Positions 14,350-38,776 of a DNA stretch of 43,930 nucleotides are shown one piece after another. Under the pieces are notes generated by a model. That model made no database searches. It was given only the letters and a program-made list of their open reading frames with translations, and had not been told where the DNA came from. The stretch covers positions 1-43,930 of the forward strand of contig CASEQH010000062.1 in the NCBI GenBank assembly GCA_949290085.1, in the 5' to 3' direction. The first letter of the stretch is position 1. The number at the start of each line of letters is the position of its first letter. A program made the position numbers and the translations under genes. The DNA comes from an uncultured Bacillota bacterium. Its GTDB lineage: Bacteria > Bacillota_I > Bacilli_A > Erysipelotrichales > Erysipelotrichaceae.

Positions 14350-15288
14350 TTATTTTTCAATTTCTTCTAATCGGGGCAAAGAAGAAGATGCACCTAAATG
14401 TGAAACAGTATAAGAAGCTACTCTTGTAGCAAAATGCATCGCTGCCTCAATACTATATTTGTTTGCCAACGCAAAACAAAAACTAGAAACAAAAGAATCC
14501 CCAGCAGCCGTTGTATCAACTGCGATTGTTGGAATAGCGGGAACATAAATACTATTTAACTTATCGATATAATATGACCCTTTATCTCCTAAAGTAATTA
14601 AAAGAGAATTTAAACCTTTTTTCGCTAGCATGTCATAAGCTGCTTCAATTCTGCTTACATCTATCTGTCCTTTATCATCGTGTACGTCAATATTTGTCAT
14701 GGCGTATAATTCATGTTCATTAGGAGAGAGAAAATCAATATTTCTTAATAATTTTTCACTTAATGGAACATAAGGGGCAGGATTTAACATTACTTTAATA
14801 CCGTTTTTGTGTGCTAGTGATGCTACTTTTTCATTGACATCCATATCTATTTCTAGCTGCAACATCACAATATCATATTGCTTAATTTCTGATTCAATAA
14901 AATTAATATCATCATATGTAAAAGCTTTATTTGCTCCAGGAATAACAATGATACGATTTGCACCATTGCCTGCATCATCAACCTCAAGTAAAATAACTGC
15001 AGAACCTGTAGAAGTATTATTTTTAGTAATCACCCCCGAAGTATTAACATTAGCATCTTTTAATGCAGATAACAAAGACTTGCCATTTACGTCATTGCCA
15101 ATAGCACCAATCATTTTTATCTCTGCACCTAACAAGCCTAACTGGCATGCTTGATTCAAACCTTTCCCACCAGGGGCACTGGTTAACTTATCACCAAAAA
15201 CTGTCTCACCCTCATTTGGCAAAATATGAGTAGTAGCGGTCAAATCCATATTTAAGCTTCCAACCACCATTATTTTTGATTTTTCCAT
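14350..15288 (-). CDS. rbsK: Ribokinase
   Basis: PfkB-family kinase that turns ribose into ribose 5-phosphate with ATP. The 312 residues have the N-terminal signature GSLNMDL and GGKGLNQA (about 39-46), NPAP in the middle (MLNPAPY), SPNEHE (the PNE motif) and the anion-hole and catalytic-base motif DTTAAGDS, which is the form found in true ribokinases. Length is normal. It is the last gene of the ABC operon, ten bases after the cupin gene, with AGGAGA as ribosome site. A nucleoside hydrolase in the same operon would supply its substrate. Confidence 0.92.
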   Translation of the reverse strand: MEKSKIMVVGSLNMDLTATTHILPNEGETVFGDKLTSAPGGKGLNQACQLGLLGAEIKMIGAIGNDVNGKSLLSALKDANVNTSGVITKNNTSTGSAVILLEVDDAGNGANRIIVIPGANKAFTYDDINFIESEIKQYDIVMLQLEIDMDVNEKVASLAHKNGIKVMLNPAPYVPLSEKLLRNIDFLSPNEHELYAMTNIDVHDDKGQIDVSRIEAAYDMLAKKGLNSLLITLGDKGSYYIDKLNSIYVPAIPTIAVDTTAAGDSFVSSFCFALANKYSIEAAMHFATRVASYTVSHLGASSSLPRLEEIEK

Positions 15289-15297
15289 AGATTTCTC

Positions 15298-15789
15298 CTA
15301 AAGTTCAATTTCAATCATCTTATCCTGAGGAAATTTGACTACTAAACAATCATTGGCGTATGTTCGCTCAGGTAATATGCAAACAACACTCACATTTTGA
15401 GCATTTATAGGATATTGCGCTTTATGCCACACTCCTGGTCTAAATGTAATCATATATCCTTTAGGAACGATAAAAGCCTCAACCTGATCGTATGGAAAAC
15501 AATCATTTCCTGCTGGTGCAGCAAATATAACAACATCATCATTAAGGGGTATTAATATTTCTGTTGCATTCATATGACGTTCTGCTTCGTCTATGACATA
15601 AGGCCTTTTCTGGCAGACAACAGTAGAGAAGCCTGTCAATAAGGGGGAAGTATATTCTGCTAAAATGTCACGATAAAAAACGACATCTCCTTCACCAATA
15701 CAAGGACCTTCAGGATTGAGTAAATTCGCAAACTCACCATATGTATGAAAATTATCCCAACTTAATGTTTTAGCAGTGATTCGTTTCAT
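15298..15789 (-). CDS. Ureidoglycolate-lyase-like cupin protein
   Basis: A 163-residue beta-rich protein with features of the ureidoglycolate lyase (AllA) fold: RHMNATEILIPLNDD, FIVPKGYMITFRPGVWH and the paired histidines that could bind a metal. No allantoin genes are nearby, so the literal lyase reaction is doubtful. In an operon with a sugar ABC transporter, nucleoside hydrolase and ribokinase it may act on the sugar or released base, or as an epimerase-like cupin (inference). The start overlaps the hydrolase stop as ATGA, with AAGGA upstream. I am fairly sure of the fold and not of the substrate. Confidence 0.65.
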   Translation of the reverse strand: MKRITAKTLSWDNFHTYGEFANLLNPEGPCIGEGDVVFYRDILAEYTSPLLTGFSTVVCQKRPYVIDEAERHMNATEILIPLNDDVVIFAAPAGNDCFPYDQVEAFIVPKGYMITFRPGVWHKAQYPINAQNVSVVCILPERTYANDCLVVKFPQDKMIEIEL

Positions 15790-16733
15790 ATATTTTCCTT
15801 ACCTGAATATTGAATCTGTAATTTGCAGAAAAAGTCTTCAAGAACGACTCTTAGATCCATATTTTTATAGCATTTGACCATTTTGCAATTTTCCTTCGAA
15901 AAATAGTGCATATCATCAGAAATAAAAGGAGCTTGTTCCCATTTTGCATTAAAAGGTTGTTCATCTAGCAGAGCGCCAATAGCTGTTTCGTCACAGATAG
16001 AAAATACTTCACTCATAGGCCATCCGTTCTCATTGGCCATTGTCAAAAAGTTTATTAGTTTATCATATAAATATTTTCCTATCTTTCCATAAGGTTCAAC
16101 TTTTAATTGAAGTTCGGCTAAGGTGACACGAGGCATATCATAAACATCAGTAGGAACATGCCATACCTCCGCTCCAGATTGAAAAACTATATTTGCCGCA
16201 GCTACATCATTCATTAAGTTAAATTCACGACCACCGGCAGGATATGTTGCCCCGCCGTTCCACACAACTACTAATTTCATAGCTATATCCGGTCTTTTAA
16301 TCAAAGCCGAAGCGACGTTAGTTAAAGGCCCCAAAACGCCAATATATAATTTTTCTTTAAGGCAGGCATCGGCTTGTTCGATTATAAAGTCGACTCCTTC
16401 ACTTTCTTGTGCTTTATACCGTTTAAAAAAACTTGGAGAATCATCAACTTCTAGGTTGGTTTTGCATCCTTTTAATAGTCTAACTTTATCAGTTAAATCC
16501 ATTTCTTTTAGTATTCTTGATACCTCATCATAGCTAGCTTGCATTGAATCTTTAATTCGCTGATGACCAAAATGTGTAGCAATAATACCTAATACATCAA
16601 GACTAGGAGACAACAAAGCATGAACAATTGCAAACGGATCATCTGATTCATTGTCTGCATCTGTGTCAATAATTACTTTCTTTATTGCACTAGCAGGGAG
16701 TTTAAAATGATAATTTTTTTCGAATTCTAACAT
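15786..16733 (-). CDS. Inosine-uridine-type nucleoside hydrolase
   Basis: Cleaves the N-glycosidic bond of a ribonucleoside to give a base and ribose. The 315 residues begin with the calcium-binding aspartate cluster DTDADNESDDPFA (usual form DTDPGxDDA), here lengthened by about two residues. GVLGPLTNVA at the middle and WNGGA further on are family motifs. A distal FSICDETAIGAL supplies the aspartate usually found in the PHDPLA region; PHD is replaced by CDE, so substrate choice may differ. Translation begins four bases after the permease gene, whose AAAGGATAG end serves as ribosome site. It fits between import and ribokinase. Confidence 0.85.
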   Translation of the reverse strand: MLEFEKNYHFKLPASAIKKVIIDTDADNESDDPFAIVHALLSPSLDVLGIIATHFGHQRIKDSMQASYDEVSRILKEMDLTDKVRLLKGCKTNLEVDDSPSFFKRYKAQESEGVDFIIEQADACLKEKLYIGVLGPLTNVASALIKRPDIAMKLVVVWNGGATYPAGGREFNLMNDVAAANIVFQSGAEVWHVPTDVYDMPRVTLAELQLKVEPYGKIGKYLYDKLINFLTMANENGWPMSEVFSICDETAIGALLDEQPFNAKWEQAPFISDDMHYFSKENCKMVKCYKNMDLRVVLEDFFCKLQIQYSGKENI

Positions 16734-16737
16734 AACA

Positions 16738-17571
16738 CTATCCTTTCATAGCACCAGCAGATAAACCTTCTACGAATGATTTTTGACAAATAAAATAAAC
16801 GATTATTGCTGGTACGGTAATAATAACAAGAGCGGCAAACAATGAAGTATATTCAATGTTATGTCGACCCATGAAATTTGATGCAGCTACTGGCAATGTT
16901 CTGAGGTTTTCGTCAGTCAATAACAAATTTGCATAGTAATATTCATTCCAAAAACCTAGACCACTAAATATAATTTGGGTCACTATACCAGGCTTAGCAA
17001 GGGGTAATATTATTTTTGTAAAACATTGAAATCTAGTAGCACCATCAATCATTGCTGCCTCTTCTAATCCCTGTGGTAAAGATATAAAAAATGCACGCAT
17101 AATAAACACACCCATCGCTATTGAGCCAGCCACATAAACCAAAATCAATCCGAAGAGAGAATTATTTAATCCTAAAGCCAAGCAAACTTGATAAGTCGGA
17201 ATGCCTAGCACGCCACTAGGAATCATTATGCCTAGCAATAAATAAATATAGATGATTGAACGCATTTTAAATTTTAGACGTCCTATTGCATAGGCAGCAC
17301 AGCAATTTACAGGTATCATCAATATAATCGCACCAGCAGTCACAAGAAAACTGTTTAAAAATTTTTGCCCTAATTCCCCTTGTTGCCAAGCTTTAATATA
17401 ATTATTAAATTCAAAGGTTTCTGGAAGTCCCCAAATATTAGTGTAAAATTCTCCCTCGCCCTTTAGCGAACACAAAACCATCCATATAATGGGATAAGCA
17501 CAAATAATGAAAAATACCATTACAATCAAGATTCCTAAGATTTTTGGTAAAGTTTTTTTAACAGAGGCCAT
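16738..17571 (-). CDS. Carbohydrate ABC transporter permease (MalG/UgpE type)
   Basis: Inner-membrane permease of a CUT1 sugar transporter. The 277 residues contain six hydrophobic segments, and the cytoplasmic EAA loop reads EEAAMIDGATRFQCFTKI, the coupling site for the ATPase. The C-terminus ends KSFVEGLSAGAMKG, typical of MalG-like permeases. It follows the other permease gene directly (stop and start one base apart). With the binding protein and ATPase upstream it forms a complete importer; the substrate is probably a nucleoside or ribosyl compound, judged from the downstream enzymes. Confidence 0.94.
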   Translation of the reverse strand: MASVKKTLPKILGILIVMVFFIICAYPIIWMVLCSLKGEGEFYTNIWGLPETFEFNNYIKAWQQGELGQKFLNSFLVTAGAIILMIPVNCCAAYAIGRLKFKMRSIIYIYLLLGIMIPSGVLGIPTYQVCLALGLNNSLFGLILVYVAGSIAMGVFIMRAFFISLPQGLEEAAMIDGATRFQCFTKIILPLAKPGIVTQIIFSGLGFWNEYYYANLLLTDENLRTLPVAASNFMGRHNIEYTSLFAALVIITVPAIIVYFICQKSFVEGLSAGAMKG

Positions 17572-18465
17572 CTAATTTACCTCACTTTCTTTTCTGGTCA
17601 TGAAATATAATTGAATTAAACCAAAGATAAACGCAATTGCAAAAGTGATTATCGTCATGGCATTGGCTTTTCCCATGTTTCCATAAGTAAATGCGGTTCG
17701 CATGATATATGTTGCTGATACTTCTGTCGCATGGAATGGTCCTCCATCCGTCATGATGTGAACAATGTCATAGTTTGACACCAGACCACCAGTGATTGAC
17801 ATCATCACATTTACAACAATAGTCGGATTTAGCAAAGGAATAGTAATATTTTTAAACTTTTGCCAAGCGCTAGCACCATCAATTTCAGCAGCTTCATAAT
17901 AATCTTGTGAAATTGCTTGAAGACCAGCTATATACAAAACCATGTGATATCCAATCCATTTCCAAACATCAACTGCAATTACTGACCACATCGCACAAGT
18001 AGGATCAGACAACCATCCTTTAATCCAATTGTCTAAACCAATGAGACTCAAAAAGGAATTCAACAATCCAAAAGTGGGATTAAAAATCCACGTCCATAAT
18101 ATTCCGATAACAATATAAGACATCATTACTGGCATATAAATACCAGATCGAAAGAAATTTTTTAAAGGAAATTTTTTAACCAGTATAAAAGCTAAGACAA
18201 GTGCAATTATATTTTTAAATATTGTTACGGCTATAGCATAAATAAAAGTATTGCCGATAGCTGTCTTATATACTTCATCTTCCAAAACAAACAAATAGTT
18301 TTCGCCAGCATTAAACGTCATTGCTCCATAACCATCCCATTTGAAGAAGCTAATAACTAACCCGGTAAGTAAAGGAACGATTATTAATACTGTAAATAGA
18401 ATAAGAGCTGGTGCGCACATTAGATATGGGAAATACTTTTCTTTTAGTTTACTTATTTTTTCCAT
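17572..18465 (-). CDS. Carbohydrate ABC transporter permease (MalF/UgpA type)
   Basis: Partner permease of the importer, 297 residues. Six transmembrane segments are visible, beginning at about residue 15 (YLMCAPALILFTVLIIVPLL). The EAA loop is YEAAEIDGASAWQKFKNI. It forms a heterodimer with the MalG-type protein. The ATG follows AGAGGAT. A strong RNA hairpin lies between the binding-protein gene and this gene and may lower the expression of the permeases. Confidence 0.94.
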   Translation of the reverse strand: MEKISKLKEKYFPYLMCAPALILFTVLIIVPLLTGLVISFFKWDGYGAMTFNAGENYLFVLEDEVYKTAIGNTFIYAIAVTIFKNIIALVLAFILVKKFPLKNFFRSGIYMPVMMSYIVIGILWTWIFNPTFGLLNSFLSLIGLDNWIKGWLSDPTCAMWSVIAVDVWKWIGYHMVLYIAGLQAISQDYYEAAEIDGASAWQKFKNITIPLLNPTIVVNVMMSITGGLVSNYDIVHIMTDGGPFHATEVSATYIMRTAFTYGNMGKANAMTIITFAIAFIFGLIQLYFMTRKESEVN

Positions 18466-18517: not shown

Positions 18518-19873
18518 CTAGTTTTGAGGGAAAACCATCTGAGCTTCTTCAGTTGTAAAATTATCCCACCATGCATAAATGTAATCATTTTCTCTTACAA
18601 TTGTTTCATATGCCTCTTGAACCATTTGCACAGCTTGTTCAGAATCAATTGTGCCTGCAGCCAATGCCGGAATCGCTTGGCAGAATGCATCATTGATTTG
18701 TGCTGGCCAAATCCAGTCAAGATATGTAATGGCATGCGGAGTTACAACTTCATTCATTTCTTGAATAAAAGCATCATCTGAATTTTCGACATCTTTCATT
18801 ATCTTAAATTTAGTTGCTCCATTTGCATTTAATACCTTAGTGGCATTTTCTGGTCTTGTCGCAAACTCCAAGAACTGCTTCACCATCTCTAGACGAGAAT
18901 CATCAATAAATGCTGGTACACATAATGAACCATCTCCTATACCATAACCATAATAATAGTCGCTAGCTCCATCCATGATTGGATATGGAAGAACGCCGTA
19001 CTCAAATTCTGGATTAGCACTACGAATGTCCGCTAATGTTGAATCAAGAGTAAAAATCATAGCTACTTTTTCTTGAACAAAAGAAGCGACTAAACCTGTT
19101 GTATCAGTATCGAAAGAATCGGTCTTCATTATTCCTGCTTCAAACAAATCAGCGATCCAATCAAAAGCTTGAATCTCCGCTTCGCCATCAAAAGTTTTAT
19201 CTCCATTTAAAAAACTTTCCACATTAGCAATAGATTCTCCACCCGTAGCTTCGCCATAAGTAGACATGTAAAGTCCAGGCCAAGCCCAAGTATCTTTACC
19301 ATTAATCATTAAAGGGGTTATACCTAATTTATCATTAATGGTATCAGCTACGCTTTCTAACTCAGCAAAAGTGCTAGGTACTTCAAGACCTAATTCATCA
19401 AACATAGTTTTGTTATACATAATGGTCCAAGAACCACCGTCTGCCATTGGCAAGCACCACAAATAATCACCCATATAACAACTATCAAGAACTCCTTCTT
19501 CGTAGCGATCAATTACTTCTTGATCAACCAAATTAGTTAAATCTTTAATCATAGCGCCTGGGCCTAAAGGAGATTGAATCAAGCCTACTCCTTGAATCAA
19601 CACATCTACTGGAGTATTAGATAATTTCATTGAATTAAGTAATTCAGGGGTTTCTGACCAAGTTCCTTGATAGGAAGCCTCTACTTTAATACCTGTTTCT
19701 TCTTCAAAATCTTCGAATATTTCTTCCCATGCTGCAGTTTGCTCATCGGTTAAAACATAAGAGAAGAAATATAAAGTATTTTCATCTGCCTGTGATTCTT
19801 GAACATTAGAACCGCAGCCTGATAAAACAGTTAATAATAAACACGTCAACATCAATGTGATAATTCTTTTCAT
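18518..19873 (-). CDS. Extracellular solute-binding lipoprotein (sugar ABC importer)
   Basis: Substrate-binding protein of the importer, anchored outside the membrane. The signal peptide ends in the lipobox LSGC with the lipidated Cys 20. The mature 430-residue domain resembles cluster-D sugar-binding proteins (SBP_bac_1): YFFSYVLTDEQTAAWEEIFEDFEEETGI, MYNKTMFDELGLEVP and TWAWPGLY are usual elements. Many aromatic residues could line a sugar or nucleoside site. AAGGAGG lies five bases before the ATG, the strongest ribosome site of the operon, as fits a protein needed in excess. Confidence 0.94.
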   Translation of the reverse strand: MKRIITLMLTCLLLTVLSGCGSNVQESQADENTLYFFSYVLTDEQTAAWEEIFEDFEEETGIKVEASYQGTWSETPELLNSMKLSNTPVDVLIQGVGLIQSPLGPGAMIKDLTNLVDQEVIDRYEEGVLDSCYMGDYLWCLPMADGGSWTIMYNKTMFDELGLEVPSTFAELESVADTINDKLGITPLMINGKDTWAWPGLYMSTYGEATGGESIANVESFLNGDKTFDGEAEIQAFDWIADLFEAGIMKTDSFDTDTTGLVASFVQEKVAMIFTLDSTLADIRSANPEFEYGVLPYPIMDGASDYYYGYGIGDGSLCVPAFIDDSRLEMVKQFLEFATRPENATKVLNANGATKFKIMKDVENSDDAFIQEMNEVVTPHAITYLDWIWPAQINDAFCQAIPALAAGTIDSEQAVQMVQEAYETIVRENDYIYAWWDNFTTEEAQMVFPQN

Positions 19874-19888
19874 TTTTACCTCCTTAAA

Positions 19889-21040
19889 TCAATCACAGTA
19901 AAGTATATTTTTTCCAGTCTGAATATCAAATAAATGAATCATCGATAAATTCATATTGAGATTAACAAGTTGCCCACTTGTATAGGTATTGCTGCCTTCC
20001 AAAGGAATTGCTGCAACAATGTCTATATCATTGAGTTTCAAATGGATATGTACTTCTCCGCCCATCATTTCAACAACATCAATTTTTGTTTCAAGACCAT
20101 TTTTGTTTAAAAATAAATGCGATGGTCTTATACCTAATTTAACTTCGCAGTCATCGATATTTCTCGCTTTTAACTGCTCACTCATTTCGTGACTCAAGGA
20201 AAAAGTTTTTCCTCCAATGCTAATCTCGTATCCTCCCTCTTTTTTCTTCAATAAAACATCAGGAATTATATTCATTTGAGGCATTCCGATAAAACCTGCC
20301 ACAAAAAGATTACGGGGTTTATCAAACACTTCTTGAGGAGTTCCAATTTGTTGAATCTCGCCATCTTTCATTACAACAATCCGATCTCCTAAAGTCATGG
20401 CCTCAATTTGATCGTGAGTGACATAAATAAAAGTGGTATTTACCCTTTGGCGAAGTTTAATTATCTCTGCACGCATTTGATTGCGAAGTTTTGCATCGAG
20501 ATTACTTAATGGCTCATCCATCAGAAAGACCTTGGGATTGCGAACGATTGCTCTACCTATTGCAACTCTTTGACGTTGCCCACCCGACAAAGCTTTAGGC
20601 TTTCGATTCAAATAAGTTGTAATATCTAATATTTCTGCAGCTTCTTTAACCTTTTCATCTATAACGTTTTTTGGCATTTTTGCCAACTTCATTGAAAATG
20701 CCATATTTTCATAGACAGTCATATGCGGATACAAAGCATAGTTTTGAAAAACCATTGCTATGTCTCTTTCTTTTGGAGTGAGGTCATTTACTCTTTTACC
20801 ATCAATATACAAATCACCTTCAGTAATAGTTTCTAGTCCAGCAATCATTCTTAAAGTTGTTGACTTGCCACATCCAGAAGGTCCTACTAGAACGATGAAC
20901 TCCTTGTCTTTGATTTCAAGATTGATATTGTCTACACTTGCCGTATTAGATTTCTGAGCATTATTTCGCTTTTTAAAAAAGCCTTTTTTAATAGCTTGAG
21001 GATACACTTTTTTAATATTTTTTAATATAACTTCAGCCAT
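19889..21040 (-). CDS. Sugar ABC transporter ATPase (MsmK/UgpC type)
   Basis: Energises the importer. In 383 residues: Walker A GPSGCGKST at 53-61, Q-loop VFQNYALYPHM, signature LSGGQRQR, Walker B FLMDEPLSN, H-loop YVTHDQ, and a C-terminal TOBE domain. A lysine-rich insertion of about 20 residues (16-36) separates the first strand from the rest; I recall similar inserts in relatives. Having its own ATPase, the system does not need a shared MsmK. It is the first gene of the operon, yet no ribosome site lies within 30 bases of the ATG; the nearest GGAGG is at 21072-21076. Confidence 0.94.
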   Translation of the reverse strand: MAEVILKNIKKVYPQAIKKGFFKKRNNAQKSNTASVDNINLEIKDKEFIVLVGPSGCGKSTTLRMIAGLETITEGDLYIDGKRVNDLTPKERDIAMVFQNYALYPHMTVYENMAFSMKLAKMPKNVIDEKVKEAAEILDITTYLNRKPKALSGGQRQRVAIGRAIVRNPKVFLMDEPLSNLDAKLRNQMRAEIIKLRQRVNTTFIYVTHDQIEAMTLGDRIVVMKDGEIQQIGTPQEVFDKPRNLFVAGFIGMPQMNIIPDVLLKKKEGGYEISIGGKTFSLSHEMSEQLKARNIDDCEVKLGIRPSHLFLNKNGLETKIDVVEMMGGEVHIHLKLNDIDIVAAIPLEGSNTYTSGQLVNLNMNLSMIHLFDIQTGKNILYCD

Positions 21041-21076: not shown

Positions 21077-21113
21077 TTTCAGTAAAACAATTTACTAAAA
21101 TGTTTTACTAAAA
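21077..21113. promoter_or_regulatory. Three phased operator-like palindromes at the ABC operon start
   Basis: Copies of an 11-base palindrome TTTTA(C/G)TAAAA lie at 21077-21087 (TTTCAGTAAAA), 21090-21100 (ATTTACTAAAA) and 21103-21113 (TTTTACTAAAA), each 13 bases from the next. The last covers the predicted transcription start near 21109. A fourth exact copy lies in the leader of the divergent regulator gene (21210-21220). They are the best candidates for the binding sites of that regulator. Confidence 0.65.
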
Positions 21114-21115
21114 GA

Positions 21116-21144
21116 ATCATAGAATATTATTCTTACTATGTCAA
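21116..21144 (-). promoter_or_regulatory. Sigma-A promoter of the ABC/nucleoside operon
   Basis: A perfect TTGACA at 21139-21144 and TATGAT at 21116-21121 with 17 bases between. It is one of the best promoters in the window, which implies a need for repression; operator-like palindromes begin right behind it. Confidence 0.88.
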
Positions 21145-21151
21145 TATAAAA

Positions 21152-21210
21152 ATGTAAGCGTTTAATTTTGCAAAAAATAAAACTTATATGGTAAAATGTA
21201 AGCGAAAGGT
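21152..21210. promoter_or_regulatory. Two cre-like elements sharing ATGTAAGCG
   Basis: ATGTAAGCGTTTAAT at 21152-21166 matches the CcpA cre consensus except at the last two positions. ATGTAAGCGAAAGGT at 21196-21210 matches only its first half. The shared nine bases recur 44 bases apart. The first lies between the two divergent -35 boxes, the second on the start of the regulator transcript. Catabolite control or binding by the LacI-type regulator itself are both possible. Confidence 0.5.
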
Positions 21211-21221: not shown

Positions 21222-23108
21222 ATGAATATTAAAGATATAGCTAAAATGACCGGTGTATCTATTACCACAGTTTCCAAAATAATTAATAATAAAACAGAAG
21301 ATATTTCACAAGAAACTATCGATAAAGTAATGGCAACAGTCAAAAAATTTAACTACACTCCTTACGGCTCGGCAAGAAAGAATAAAACTAAAAATTTTGT
21401 CATTGCCTTGCTTTTAAAAAAAATGTATAACACAAATCTAATGATTAATTCTTTGGTAGAAAGCTTGGGCAAAGAAGGCTATTCGCTCATGCTGTTTGAT
21501 TCAGATGATTCAATAGAAAAAGAAAAGATAAATTTAGCTAAAATAGCTTCAAAAAATCCCGATGGTTTAATATGGGAAATAGTTGGACAAGAAAGCTATA
21601 ATAATCTAATTTATCTAAACAATTGTACATGTAAAATAATTTATCTTGATCCTAAGTATGAAAAAGAGAATACATATTATATCGACTATACTAAAATGGG
21701 TTATGTGGCCACTTCCGCCCTCATTGAAAAAGGGCACACCAGAATTGCCTGCATATTAAAAGAAAATAGCCATCGAAGCGAAGAATTCTTTAACGGTTTT
21801 AGACAATGTTTATTCGATAATAATATTCCATATCAAAATGAAATGTACGTTCCTTTTGATAAATTTCATCCAGATATTTTAAAAAATGGATCTTTTACAG
21901 GTCTTATATGTTCTCATTTCGCTATTACACAAAAATTAATTATTCAATTTGAAATGTTGGATATCCATTTGCCTCTGGAATTATCACTCATTTCATTGCG
22001 CGATGATGTAAGAGAGGCTATTGATTTAGCTAATATTTCTACAATCAAAATTCCTAATTATGAATTTGGTTCCTTTTTAGCTACGCGCATAATTAATCTT
22101 TGTGAAAATAAAGGAGAACTAAATAGCTCTTTTGAATATAATATTTCCGTTGAATCATATAAAACAATAGACATCCCTTTCAATATGAGATTTCCTAAAA
22201 TTACTGTTGTAGGAAGCATAAATACAGATTATTTCTTTTATTTAGATGATTTTCCCGTTCAAGGAAATACTGTTGTTGCAAGCGAAAATGTTGTAATACC
22301 AGGAGGAAAAGGCCTTAATCAAGCTATTGCCATCTCAAAATTAAATAAAGAAGTAACATTGATTGGAAAAATTGGAAAAGATCAAGAAGCTTCACAAATA
22401 TGCCAAGTATTAAGCAATCATAATGTCGACATTCGCAATTTGATATCAAGTAGCAAATATAGAACAGGTAAAGCTATTATTAATATCAATCATAGTGGTG
22501 AAAGCACAATTGTCGTTACTAAAGGGGCTAATTTTTCATTGTATGCTAAACATATAAGCGATCATATGCGAGCTTTTGAAAATACAGGTATCTGTCTCAT
22601 GCAAAGTGAAATACCTATGAGCGCAATATCTGAAGCAGCACGGATAGCAAAACTTTACCGAGCTACTACCATTTTAAAACCGGCTTCTATTTCACATATG
22701 AACGATGAAGATTATTCTAACATAGATATATTCATCCCCAATCGCAATGAAGCACTAAAATTGAGCGGTAAAAGTAGCATCGAACAAGCAGCATATTACT
22801 TTTTGTCCAAGGGCCCTAAAACAATTATTATCACTCTAGATGCCGATGGTGTGCTCTTGTTAACAAATGATGAATTAACCTATTTTGAAGCACTTAAAAC
22901 TGATGTAATAGATGAAACTGGGGGATCAGATGCTTTCATTTCAGCATTAAGCGTAAAGTTACTTGATGGTTTTAGCATCCATGAAGCAATAAATGCAGGA
23001 ATAATTGCGGCTAGCTTTTGCATCTCTCGTTTTGGAGTATCTAACTCTTTAATCGACTATGAAACTTTGGAAAGACGTTTGGTCCACAATAATATGATCA
23101 AAAAATAA
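21222..23108 (+). CDS. LacI-family repressor fused to a ribokinase-like domain
   Basis: A 628-residue two-part protein in one open frame. Residues 1-55 are a LacI helix-turn-helix (MNIKDIAKMTGVSITTVSKI, then the hinge-side NYTPYGSARKNKT). About 60-320 resemble the periplasmic-binding-like sensor, shortened at its end. From about 322 (ITVVGSINTDYFF) a complete PfkB kinase fold follows with GGKGLNQA, IFIPNRNEA and DETGGSDAF. The usual anion-hole sequence GAGD or AAGD is GGSD, TLGxxG is TLDADG and NPAP is KPAS, so catalysis may be weak or lost while the base aspartate remains. It is divergent from the nucleoside/ribose operon and probably controls it. Base composition is like that of its neighbours. 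A frameshift or stop between the parts is excluded by the reading frame. Confidence 0.88.
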   Translation: MNIKDIAKMTGVSITTVSKIINNKTEDISQETIDKVMATVKKFNYTPYGSARKNKTKNFVIALLLKKMYNTNLMINSLVESLGKEGYSLMLFDSDDSIEKEKINLAKIASKNPDGLIWEIVGQESYNNLIYLNNCTCKIIYLDPKYEKENTYYIDYTKMGYVATSALIEKGHTRIACILKENSHRSEEFFNGFRQCLFDNNIPYQNEMYVPFDKFHPDILKNGSFTGLICSHFAITQKLIIQFEMLDIHLPLELSLISLRDDVREAIDLANISTIKIPNYEFGSFLATRIINLCENKGELNSSFEYNISVESYKTIDIPFNMRFPKITVVGSINTDYFFYLDDFPVQGNTVVASENVVIPGGKGLNQAIAISKLNKEVTLIGKIGKDQEASQICQVLSNHNVDIRNLISSSKYRTGKAIININHSGESTIVVTKGANFSLYAKHISDHMRAFENTGICLMQSEIPMSAISEAARIAKLYRATTILKPASISHMNDEDYSNIDIFIPNRNEALKLSGKSSIEQAAYYFLSKGPKTIIITLDADGVLLLTNDELTYFEALKTDVIDETGGSDAFISALSVKLLDGFSIHEAINAGIIAASFCISRFGVSNSLIDYETLERRLVHNNMIKK

Positions 23109-23184: not shown

Positions 23185-23217
23185 AAGAAGGGGGCTAATC
23201 CCCACCCTTCTTTTTTT
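23185..23217 (+). terminator. Terminator of the regulator-kinase gene
   Basis: AGAAGGG pairs with CCCTTCT around a G/C-rich inner stem and CTAAT loop, followed by seven T. It lies about 80 bases after the stop codon; between the two I see nothing. Confidence 0.9.
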
Positions 23218-23372
23218 GTGTTCAATCTTTAATTATTCATGATACAGAACCTCAATGTTTATATAATTTTGAAGAGTCGCAACATACAAGATATTTTATT
23301 AAAGAAAATAAAAATTATAAATATCATTGTTTAAAGACATGCTATAATTTAAAAGTTATGAAGGGAGATAAT
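23218..23372 (+). promoter_or_regulatory. Spacer with extended -10 promoter of the F420-ligase-like gene
   Basis: TATAAT at 23343-23348 with the TGn extension would start transcription near 23355; the -35 is weak. AAGGGAGA at 23360-23367 is the ribosome site. Upstream, about 45 codons without stop (from near 23227) run in frame into the gene but have no start codon; they may be a gene remnant or chance. Confidence 0.6.
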
Positions 23373-24056
23373 ATGGCTAATAAGAATAAAAACGCATGTA
23401 TTGAGGTCAATAATAAGACCTATGAAAGAATACCTATCAAGACACATGTCGTGACTTTAGAAGATAATATCATTGATGTAGTCAATAAATATACTAAAGA
23501 TCATTTAAAGGACGGTGACATTGTCTTCATCTCAGAAAAGTGTGTTGCCTGCACTCAAAATAGAGCTATTCCCTTAAAAGATATCCATCCTAGCAGATTG
23601 GCTACCTTCTTATCGAAATTTGTTACCAAGACGCCTCATGGCATAGGTCTAGGCATGCCAGAGACTATGCATTATGCAATTAAGGAATGTGGAACTATTA
23701 GAATACTATTTGCAGCCTTTATTGCCGCTATAGGAAAATTATTTCATCAAAAGGGTTGGTTTTATATCATCACTGGTAAAAAAGCAGCATCTATCGATGG
23801 ACCAACACCTAATACACTTCCCCCATATAATGAATATGTAGTATTAGGACCGGAAAATCCTGACGAAGTAGCTGAAAAGATAGCTAAAACCATCAACCAT
23901 CCTGTCTGTATCGTCGACATTAATGACTTAGGCGGCAATATCCTCGGTGCCTATCCCAAAGACTTAGACTTAGATTTAATCTGTCAGATACTGAAAGATA
24001 ATCCTTTAGGTCAAGACCATGAACAGACACCTATCGGTATAATTAGAGCGAGGTAA
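23373..24056 (+). CDS. Coenzyme F420-0:L-glutamate ligase-like protein
   Basis: A 227-residue protein with the CofE/FbiB ligase fold: IPIKTHVVTLEDNIIDVV at the start, LKDGDIVFISEKCVACTQNRAI, SKFVTKTPHGIGLGMPETMHYAI, and VCIVDINDLGGNILG. In methanogens and actinobacteria this family adds glutamates to F420; Firmicutes of this kind are not known to make F420, so the substrate is probably another carboxylate. I chose the ATG at 23373 because AAGGGAG is six bases before it; the ATG five codons earlier is part of that ribosome site. It is followed after two bases by a DUF1846 gene, a pairing that suggests joint function. Confidence 0.75.
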   Translation: MANKNKNACIEVNNKTYERIPIKTHVVTLEDNIIDVVNKYTKDHLKDGDIVFISEKCVACTQNRAIPLKDIHPSRLATFLSKFVTKTPHGIGLGMPETMHYAIKECGTIRILFAAFIAAIGKLFHQKGWFYIITGKKAASIDGPTPNTLPPYNEYVVLGPENPDEVAEKIAKTINHPVCIVDINDLGGNILGAYPKDLDLDLICQILKDNPLGQDHEQTPIGIIRAR

Positions 24057-24058
24057 AT

Positions 24059-25540
24059 ATGCATAAAATCGGATTTGACAATGAAAAATACATTCAATTA
24101 CAATCAGAAAAAATAATCAAACGTATTTCGAAATTCAATAAGCTATACTTGGAGTTTGGCGGCAAGCTCTTTGATGACTTTCATGCCTCACGTGTAATTC
24201 CTGGCTTTGAACCAGACAGTAAGATAAAGATGTTACTGCATATGAAAGACAAGGTAGAGATGATGCTAGTAATCAATGCTGAACATATTCAAAAGAATAA
24301 AGTTCGTGGCGATTTGGGAATCACCTACATCCAAGACCTCTTTCGTCTCATTGATGCCTTTACCGAAGTGGGATTATATGTCGGCAGTGTCATCATCACT
24401 CACTACAATAAGCAACAAGAAGCGCAAAAATTAAAACGCAAATTAGAAAGAGCCAATATCAAAGTGGCCTATCATTATGCCATCCCTAACTATCCTAGCG
24501 ATGTCGACTTAATCTTATCCAAAGATGGTTTTGGCAAAAACGACTACATAGAGACGACACGTGAACTAGTTGTCGTTACAGCTCCAGGGCCAGGAAGCGG
24601 TAAGATGGCTACTTGTCTATCGCAGATGTATCATGATAATCTTCATAATATCAAGGCCGGCTATGCTAAATATGAAACCTTCCCAGTATGGAACTTATCA
24701 TTAAATCATCCTATCAACCTAGCTTATGAAGCGGCTACTATCGACTTAGATGATGTCAATATGATTGATCCCTTCCATTTAGAAAATTATGGTGTAGTAG
24801 CTACTAATTACAATCGTGATGTCGAGGTATTCCCTGTTTTGAATGATTTATTAAATCGCATCTTAGGAAAACAAATATATAAGTCACCTACCGACATGGG
24901 CGTCAATATGATAGGCCAATGTATAACTGATGATAAGGTTTGCCAAGAAGCTTCTAAACAAGAAATTATTCGTCGTTACTACGATACTTTGGTGTCTGTT
25001 CGTAAAGAAGATACAGGTGAAGAATCTTTAAATAAGATAGAGACCATCATGCTTAAAGCTGGAGTCGACAGATACTATCGTAAGGTAGCTATCAGAGCTA
25101 ACGAAGTAGCTGAAAAGACTAAGGAACCAGCTGTAGCTATCGAATTACCTAATGGTAAGATAATCACTGGTAAGACTTCTAAATTGATGGGTGCATCTTC
25201 CGCCGGCATATTAAATTCCTTAAAGGAAATAGCTGGTATAGATGATGTCAAACTCTTATCAAGAGAAATTCTTGAACCCATACAAGAATTAAAGACCATT
25301 CATTTAAAAGGTCATAATCCTCGCCTACATACCGATGAGACCCTCATAGCTCTAGCTATTGAATCCAAGTCCTCAGAATTATGTAAAAAAGCCATGGATG
25401 CCCTTGCCAAACTCAAAGGTTCAGAAGTTCATTCAACTGTTATCTTATCAGCTGTCGACTTAGGAACCTTTAGAAAATTAGGCATGAATGTCACACAAGA
25501 ACCAATATATCAATATAAAAAACTATTCCATAAAAAGTAA
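24059..25540 (+). CDS. DUF1846 family protein
   Basis: A 493-residue soluble protein of the DUF1846 family, common in Firmicutes and of unknown function. The recognisable parts are the start (IGFDNEKYIQLQSEKI), LYLEFGGKLFDDFHASRVIPGFEPDSKI (shown here only by its key residues GGKLFDDFHASRV), and VVVTAPGPGSGKMATCLSQ, which resembles a P-loop (GPGSGKMAT) and suggests nucleotide binding. Structural genomics models of the family exist but do not fix a reaction. It starts two bases after the F420-ligase-like gene in a bicistronic operon; the two products may act on the same metabolite (inference). Length is normal. Confidence 0.85.
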   Translation: MHKIGFDNEKYIQLQSEKIIKRISKFNKLYLEFGGKLFDDFHASRVIPGFEPDSKIKMLLHMKDKVEMMLVINAEHIQKNKVRGDLGITYIQDLFRLIDAFTEVGLYVGSVIITHYNKQQEAQKLKRKLERANIKVAYHYAIPNYPSDVDLILSKDGFGKNDYIETTRELVVVTAPGPGSGKMATCLSQMYHDNLHNIKAGYAKYETFPVWNLSLNHPINLAYEAATIDLDDVNMIDPFHLENYGVVATNYNRDVEVFPVLNDLLNRILGKQIYKSPTDMGVNMIGQCITDDKVCQEASKQEIIRRYYDTLVSVRKEDTGEESLNKIETIMLKAGVDRYYRKVAIRANEVAEKTKEPAVAIELPNGKIITGKTSKLMGASSAGILNSLKEIAGIDDVKLLSREILEPIQELKTIHLKGHNPRLHTDETLIALAIESKSSELCKKAMDALAKLKGSEVHSTVILSAVDLGTFRKLGMNVTQEPIYQYKKLFHKK

Positions 25541-37877: not shown

Positions 37878-38776
37878 TTTATAGCCTCCACTTTTAGTAA
37901 GTCAAAATTATCTTCCGTAGCTTTCCTCGATGCCAAGCCATCATTCAAGACTGTCGCAATAGCAGCCGCATTGGCATATTTAAAGGCCTCTAATGAATTA
38001 GCTCCCTTTTGAATGGCATATAGATAACCAGCTACCATACTATCCGACATTCCGGTAGTATTGACTGATTCACTCTCGGAATGCAAACATCTAAAGAAAC
38101 CTTCGTCACATCTGAATAAAGAGCCTCGGTCAACAATAGGCATAATAACATTTTTTGCACCATTTTCATAGATTTTTTCTACAGCTCTCATAGAATCTTC
38201 TTCCTCAGTCAATCTTTTAGCCTCTTCTTCATTAATACGTAAAAGATATGGGCTAGCATCTAGGCATGATCTTATGAAATTGATATCTGTATCCAAGACA
38301 ATCTTTACTTCATTATGTTTAAGCTCATGAATCAAATCTATCATTGGTGCAGCAATTTCCTGTTGGACATTGCCACTCAAGACAAAGATATCGCCAGGAT
38401 AAATACGATATAGGCGCTTTTTAAAACGATCAAATTCTTCACCACTAATATGTGGTCCCTTAGCATTGATATCGATAGATTCACCAGCGAAAATCTTTAA
38501 ATTAATGCGTGTATTATCTTTAATACTGGTAAATAAAGGCTCGATATAGCTATATTTCTTAATAAAAGACAAATAGTAATCCTTAGTAAAACCACCTAAA
38601 AAACCTAGGGCGACATTAGGTATCATCAAATTGTTTAATACGATTGAAACATTAACTCCTTTGCCTCCGGCATCAAAATCTTCCTTGACAGCCCTATTGA
38701 TGACACTACCCTGAATATGGGAATCAAAAGTCAAATAATAATCCAAAGAAGGATTAACCGTACATGTGTATATCAT
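37874..38776 (-). CDS. fruK: 1-phosphofructokinase-type kinase (FruK/LacC)
   Basis: PfkB-family kinase of 300 residues that would turn fructose 1-phosphate (or tagatose 6-phosphate) into the bisphosphate. The start MIYTCTVNPSLDYYL, the motif AGGKGVNVSIVL, LGFLGGFTK and TRINLKI are typical of FruK. The anion hole, normally GAGD, is GMSD at 242-245; Asp 245, the catalytic base, stays, and SMVAGY follows normally. No fructose PTS or FruR gene is near, so the sugar is uncertain. There is no ribosome site: TATAAA/TAAAAT lies 6-9 bases before the ATG, so the mRNA is probably leaderless. Confidence 0.85.
   Translation of the reverse strand: MIYTCTVNPSLDYYLTFDSHIQGSVINRAVKEDFDAGGKGVNVSIVLNNLMIPNVALGFLGGFTKDYYLSFIKKYSYIEPLFTSIKDNTRINLKIFAGESIDINAKGPHISGEEFDRFKKRLYRIYPGDIFVLSGNVQQEIAAPMIDLIHELKHNEVKIVLDTDINFIRSCLDASPYLLRINEEEAKRLTEEEDSMRAVEKIYENGAKNVIMPIVDRGSLFRCDEGFFRCLHSESESVNTTGMSDSMVAGYLYAIQKGANSLEAFKYANAAAIATVLNDGLASRKATEDNFDLLKVEAIK

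Follow-up and report, generated by a model that had tools for sequence, protein, structure and literature searches.

Sugar sensing through a periplasmic-binding-like pocket is classically exemplified by the LacI repressors. In Bifidobacterium, the LacI-family regulator RbsR2 controls rbsK, rihC and nucleoside transporters (PMC4746261). The gene considered here lies in contig CASEQH010000062.1 (assembly GCA_949290085.1) of an uncultured Bacillota bacterium (Erysipelotrichaceae), and the 43,930 nt analyzed are referred to as the window. Like RbsR and RbsR2, its product has an HTH and a periplasmic-binding-like core together with a palindromic candidate operator, and appears to be a local repressor adjoining ribokinase and nucleoside hydrolase genes. 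Unlike them, it carries an extra PfkB domain and is devoid of both the sugar contacts of the LacI pocket and the hinge leucine.

Architecture, relatives and descent of the fusion

The earlier note had read a LacI HTH, a sensor domain and a full PfkB domain in one frame, and all three were recovered by Pfam within a single open reading frame of 628 codons (Table 1). The sensor domain scores weakly (Peripla_BP_3, PF13377, residues 166-296, 31.5 bits, cut-off 26.5), the PF00294 model is covered nearly end to end (positions 3-299 of 302), and the ROK family (PF00480) is not among the Pfam matches of the fusion. Among solved structures the best matches of the PfkB part are ribokinases (PDB 3ry7, E=1.3e-42), and against the ribokinase equivalog TIGR02152 (NCBIfam) the fusion scores 250.1 bits, below the cut-off of 299.65. 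A terminator-like stem is found 3' of the gene (23190-23203), and genes for coenzyme F420 ligase-like and DUF1846 proteins follow directly past it on the same strand (23358-25540).

A whole-protein search revealed full-length fusions in two genomes of the same family, G001 (74% identity) and G011 (58%), the locus of the former being also seen in a MAG labelled uncultured Erysipelotrichaceae. Among 273 family genomes, a profile search identified a further fusion in G584 (49% identity over aligned residues), and tblastn against plasmids one on the Enterococcus raffinosus megaplasmid p1_Er676 (34% identity over the whole length), with the same single-piece match in a second E. raffinosus plasmid record, NZ_CP072889. 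The window gene and these four orthologs are termed type A. As the same frame is open across the domain junction in all five genomes, including the complete plasmid p1_Er676, a sequencing or assembly artefact is ruled out, and the stop or frameshift near codon 320 that the earlier note had considered is not seen. Several other full-length plasmid matches are adjacent separate genes by annotation and were hence not counted as fusions. A contig scan with very specific patterns returned only the 74% ortholog, and no relative was detected in viral contigs. Neither the 43 genomes of a sister family nor the 243 of another gave a scoring fusion, indicating a genuine but rare architecture in this group. 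In four further genomes, PfkB matches lie in frames of 414-439 aa, about 100 aa beyond kinase length, and may represent other HTH-PfkB fusions (G039:C14, G041:C1, G042:C14, G047:C26).

Two fusions from another family, termed type B (G071, L040:9499-11355, 27% identity; G775, L081:11438-13315), have the same domain order as type A, LacI followed by ribokinase, and also lie next to nucleoside hydrolase genes, one of which the fusion gene overlaps. They differ from type A in having canonical kinase loops and no separate ribokinase. Their TIGR02152 scores of 347 (G071) and 327 bits (G775) exceed the cut-off, no other protein in either genome comes near it, and G071 precedes three nucleoside hydrolases and an ECF transporter in an operon without another ribokinase. 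The intact loops, and the fact that it is the sole clear ribokinase of its genome, indicate that the type B protein is probably bifunctional, serving as kinase and repressor. In the kinase tree, type A forms one clade (99/99) and type B another (100/99), neither being nested in the other or among the partner ribokinases, which points to two independent fusion events. That the operon's own ribokinase was recently duplicated is ruled out by an identity of about 30% and a different clade. In G772, rbsR and rbsK form a tandem pair separated by one stop, an arrangement likely to resemble the precursor of a fusion.

Table 1. Positions of the LacI-PfkB fusion gene, its domains and altered loops, the divergent operon and the intervening control elements in the window
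Feature	Positions	Strand	Evidence
LacI-PfkB fusion gene	21222..23108	+	single ORF, ATG start, 628 aa
LacI-type HTH, residues 2-47	21225..21362	+	PF00356 52.5 bits, cut-off 27
LacI-type sensor (periplasmic-binding-like) domain, about residues 58-315	21393..22166	+	PF13377 and alignment
Ribokinase-like PfkB domain, residues 326-610	22197..23051	+	PF00294 164.5 bits
KPAS (residues 486-489) replacing NPAP	22677..22688	+	Lys in 5/5 type A orthologs
Asp540 replacing the TLGxxG glycine (TLDADG, 538-543)	22839..22841	+	4/5 type A orthologs
GGSD (567-570) replacing GXGD	22920..22931	+	Ser569 and base Asp570 in 5/5 orthologs
Possible autoregulatory half site TTTTAGTAAAA beside regulator start codon	21210..21220	+	also in G001
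Operon promoter TTGACA-17-TATGAT, 11/12	21116..21144	-	sequence
Predicted operator TTTACTAAAATGTTTTACTAAA, core CTAAAAYGTTTTAC	21091..21112	.	sequence match in divergent regions
ABC transporter ATPase (MalK/UgpC type)	19889..21040	-	Pfam/NCBIfam
Solute-binding protein, SBP_bac_1	18518..19873	-	Pfam
ABC permease	17572..18465	-	Pfam
ABC permease	16738..17571	-	Pfam
Nucleoside-hydrolase-family protein, divergent, DTDADNESDD motif	15786..16733	-	PF01156 105 bits
Cupin-like protein (ureidoglycolate lyase family, weak)	15298..15789	-	PF04115 45 bits
Separate ribokinase, canonical loops NPAP, TLGDKG, AAGD	14350..15288	-	TIGR02152 295.8 bits

The divergent operon and its candidate operator

Divergent from the fusion gene, an operon runs from 21040 down to 14350 and ends, in agreement with the earlier note, with a ribokinase of its own, which retains canonical loops and also narrowly misses the TIGR02152 cut-off (295.8 versus 299.65 bits). 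The description of this operon as ribose-releasing is plausible. The window hydrolase is a divergent member of its family and may act on a different substrate. In this protein and in another nucleoside-hydrolase-family protein (L061:5225-6319), DxDxxNExDD replaces DxDPGxDD. The cupin-like gene between hydrolase and ribokinase is conserved in G001 and may encode a sugar isomerase or mutarotase. Each of the five type A genes is transcribed divergently from an operon in which a canonical ribokinase and a nucleoside-hydrolase-family gene are combined with a transporter of one of four unrelated types: MalEFGK-like in the window and G001, BMP/PnrA-type in G011, ribose-type ABC in G584 and ECF plus MFS in Enterococcus. 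That the same enzyme pair is kept while the transporter changes suggests that the regulator most likely controls the pathway.

The core AAAAYGTTTT of the predicted operator is present in the divergent regions of all five type A loci; in the 43.9 kb window it occurs once, with 0.8 occurrences expected by chance. Its 14-base form CTAAAAYGTTTTAC has a single occurrence in the 1.1 Mb assembly, at the operon promoter; G001 also has it once, and G011 exactly once, at the corresponding position. The predicted operator lies just downstream of the operon -10 box, the classical position for a repressor. In addition, TGTAAGCGCTGTCA in G011 (L038:13565-13737) fits a CcpA cre site, and with the cre-like TGTAAGCGTTTAAT at 21151-21164 of the window, catabolite repression of the same operon is possible.

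Residue conservation in the two pockets

Kinase residues were numbered on E. coli ribokinase and aligned with 56 comparison PfkB proteins. The alignment supports the altered loops (GGSD, TLDADG, KPAS) and the kept base aspartate (Asp570) noticed earlier. Like the ribokinase RbsK (PfkB, TIGR02152), the fusion possesses the whole domain with sugar residues, base Asp and NXXE; unlike RbsK, the type A kinase is fused to a repressor, scores below the equivalog cut-off in the window, and carries N166K (K486 in the window) and G254S (S569) in all five proteins, Ser, Thr or Ala at Pro169, and Asp at Gly225 in four of the five. Of the 56 comparison proteins, 53 have N and three have D at the position of Asn166, and all but a phosphofructokinase-like protein (55) have G at that of Gly254; the type A Lys and Ser, at the NPAP Asn and the second GXGD Gly, occur in none of 55 free ribokinases. 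NXXE is intact in all five type A proteins (Asn187 and Glu190 equivalents, N507/E510 in the window). So are the equivalents of six sugar and base residues, Asp16, Gly42, Lys43, Asn46, Glu143 and Asp255, the kept residues being those that we take, from the E. coli ribokinase structure, to be ribose contacts. Corresponding positions in mouse adenosine kinase agree with this assignment (PMC6086891). In the GXGD motif the glycines hold the donor phosphates and the Asp is catalytic (PMC5931981), and this anion-hole motif with both glycines is absent from the window fusion. A PPi-dependent kinase is ruled out, as the RXGRGD signature of such ribokinase-family enzymes (PMC5931981) is missing and the window has DETGGSD. 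An AlphaFold model based on a two-row alignment reached a pLDDT of 40.8 and was set aside. Elsewhere in the window (37931-38722, minus strand) a further PfkB protein, phosphofructokinase/tagatose-kinase-like, has a degenerate GXGD (GMSD) and TLGxxG (PIVDRG).

The type A kinase domain is conserved on a par with its catalytic partners in the same genome pairs (73 versus 63% and 58 versus 57% identity), and within type A its identity is always above that of the LacI sensor domain; in type B the LacI part is the more conserved (75 versus 70%). Synonymous sites were saturated and dN/dS values were set aside. The identity levels argue against decay of the type A kinase domain, and a pseudogene or passenger kinase is ruled out.

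The LacI pocket, on which the earlier note did not remark, presents a different picture. The RbsR residues R195, N246, D274 and Q291, which correspond to R141, N190, D215 and Q235 of the ribose-binding protein, are F189, H232, R260 and I277 in the window fusion, and none of the four usual sugar contacts is kept in any of the five type A orthologs, in which the hinge Leu is also replaced. Three of the four RbsR-type contacts survive in type B. Such contacts are common in the LacI/GalR family, though not required for membership; all four are missing in only 4 of 25 background LacI proteins, and those four look like CcpA, the co-repressor of which is a protein (PMC4052901).

A putative kinase-derived sensor and its known parallels

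We consider it fairly probable that the type A fusion, as a LacI-family regulator, locally represses the divergent operon and that it senses its signal through the fused ribokinase-derived domain rather than through the LacI pocket. For the window gene, the fixed donor-site and anion-hole substitutions favor the first suggestion of the earlier note, that of a second sugar-sensing domain, and the kept sugar residues and the separate canonical ribokinase in every type A operon add further weight. We infer repression as the direction of regulation, a loss of catalysis in the kinase domain and, from homology and the neighboring genes, a ribose-type ligand. A repressor dimer would bind the predicted operator TTTACTAAAATGTTTTACTAAA and block transcription; ribose or a close pathway product would enter the kinase-type pocket, perhaps together with a nucleotide; the lid would probably close, and this closure, transmitted through the LacI core, would release the DNA. 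The operon's own ribokinase would perform the phosphorylation, thereby removing the inducer. In the most economical history, a LacI repressor would have gained a ribokinase, which first had a dual role or was directly recruited as sensor; the type A kinase would then have lost donor-site function to become a sugar sensor, and the LacI core its own pocket. A weak or altered kinase activity of the window fusion is possible, since the base Asp and NXXE are intact, and a Ser at G254 retains the backbone amide. The LacI pocket may have a different ligand.

The second suggestion of the earlier note, a kinase with activity tied to DNA binding, is disfavored for the window gene and seems to hold for the independent type B fusion with its intact loops. 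Extended to type A, it would imply a two-in-one trigger enzyme still phosphorylating ribose or a related sugar, with occupancy or turnover setting DNA binding. This is consistent with the retained base Asp, NXXE and sugar residues, with the canonical loops and above-cut-off scores of G071/G775 as the only clear ribokinases of their genomes, and with the nucleoside hydrolases and ECF transporter of the type B operon, but is unlikely given that the NPAP Asn and GXGD Gly are replaced in 5/5 type A proteins, that a canonical ribokinase always adjoins them and that the window fusion, at 250 bits, falls under the cut-off. It is likewise improbable that, instead of free ribose, the domain senses a phosphorylated sugar (ribose 5-phosphate or ribose 1-phosphate), a nucleoside or ATP/ADP, with Lys486 and Ser569 helping to bind phosphate, even though Ser569 lies within the donor-phosphate-binding GXGD, Lys486 by homology in a nearby loop, and the acceptor side is kept. 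That the kinase domain is a mere stable fold for dimer or tetramer contacts while the LacI core, retained in all five proteins of a family with diverse ligands, senses some other compound is very hard to reconcile with six sugar and base residues all kept and a LacI core that diverges faster.

If the kinase-derived domain is the sensor, the LacI pocket has apparently been given up for an enzyme-derived one, and the conversion of an enzyme into a sensor can be probed at a small number of fixed positions (K486, S569). The two independent fusions have met opposite fates, dampened beside a separate kinase and intact without one, and this offers a natural comparison of sensing and bifunctionality. 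No description of a LacI-PfkB fusion of either type was found in the open-access literature searched, an absence that is weak evidence, and no NCBIfam model for the architecture was found.

The ROK repressors NagC and Mlc (PMC4856308) are also HTH proteins with a sugar-kinase-derived sensor part, but their kinase fold is unrelated (PF00480) and they have no LacI core. In yeast, Gal3p/Gal1p (PMC3048525) likewise pairs an inducer protein derived from a sugar kinase with a genuine kinase, and other lineages have a bifunctional form; unlike the fusion, this system is eukaryotic, belongs to an unrelated kinase family and is not itself DNA-binding, and the bifunctional form described here is an independent fusion and not the ancestor. 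That the type A protein is a bacterial counterpart of Gal3, in which a sugar kinase without catalysis senses the inducer inside a LacI repressor with a defunct pocket, while the second, independent fusion combines an active kinase with a repressor, seems to us an evenly balanced proposition. Gal3/Gal1 is the nearest logical parallel and the ROK repressors the nearest bacterial one, neither being homologous to the fusion.
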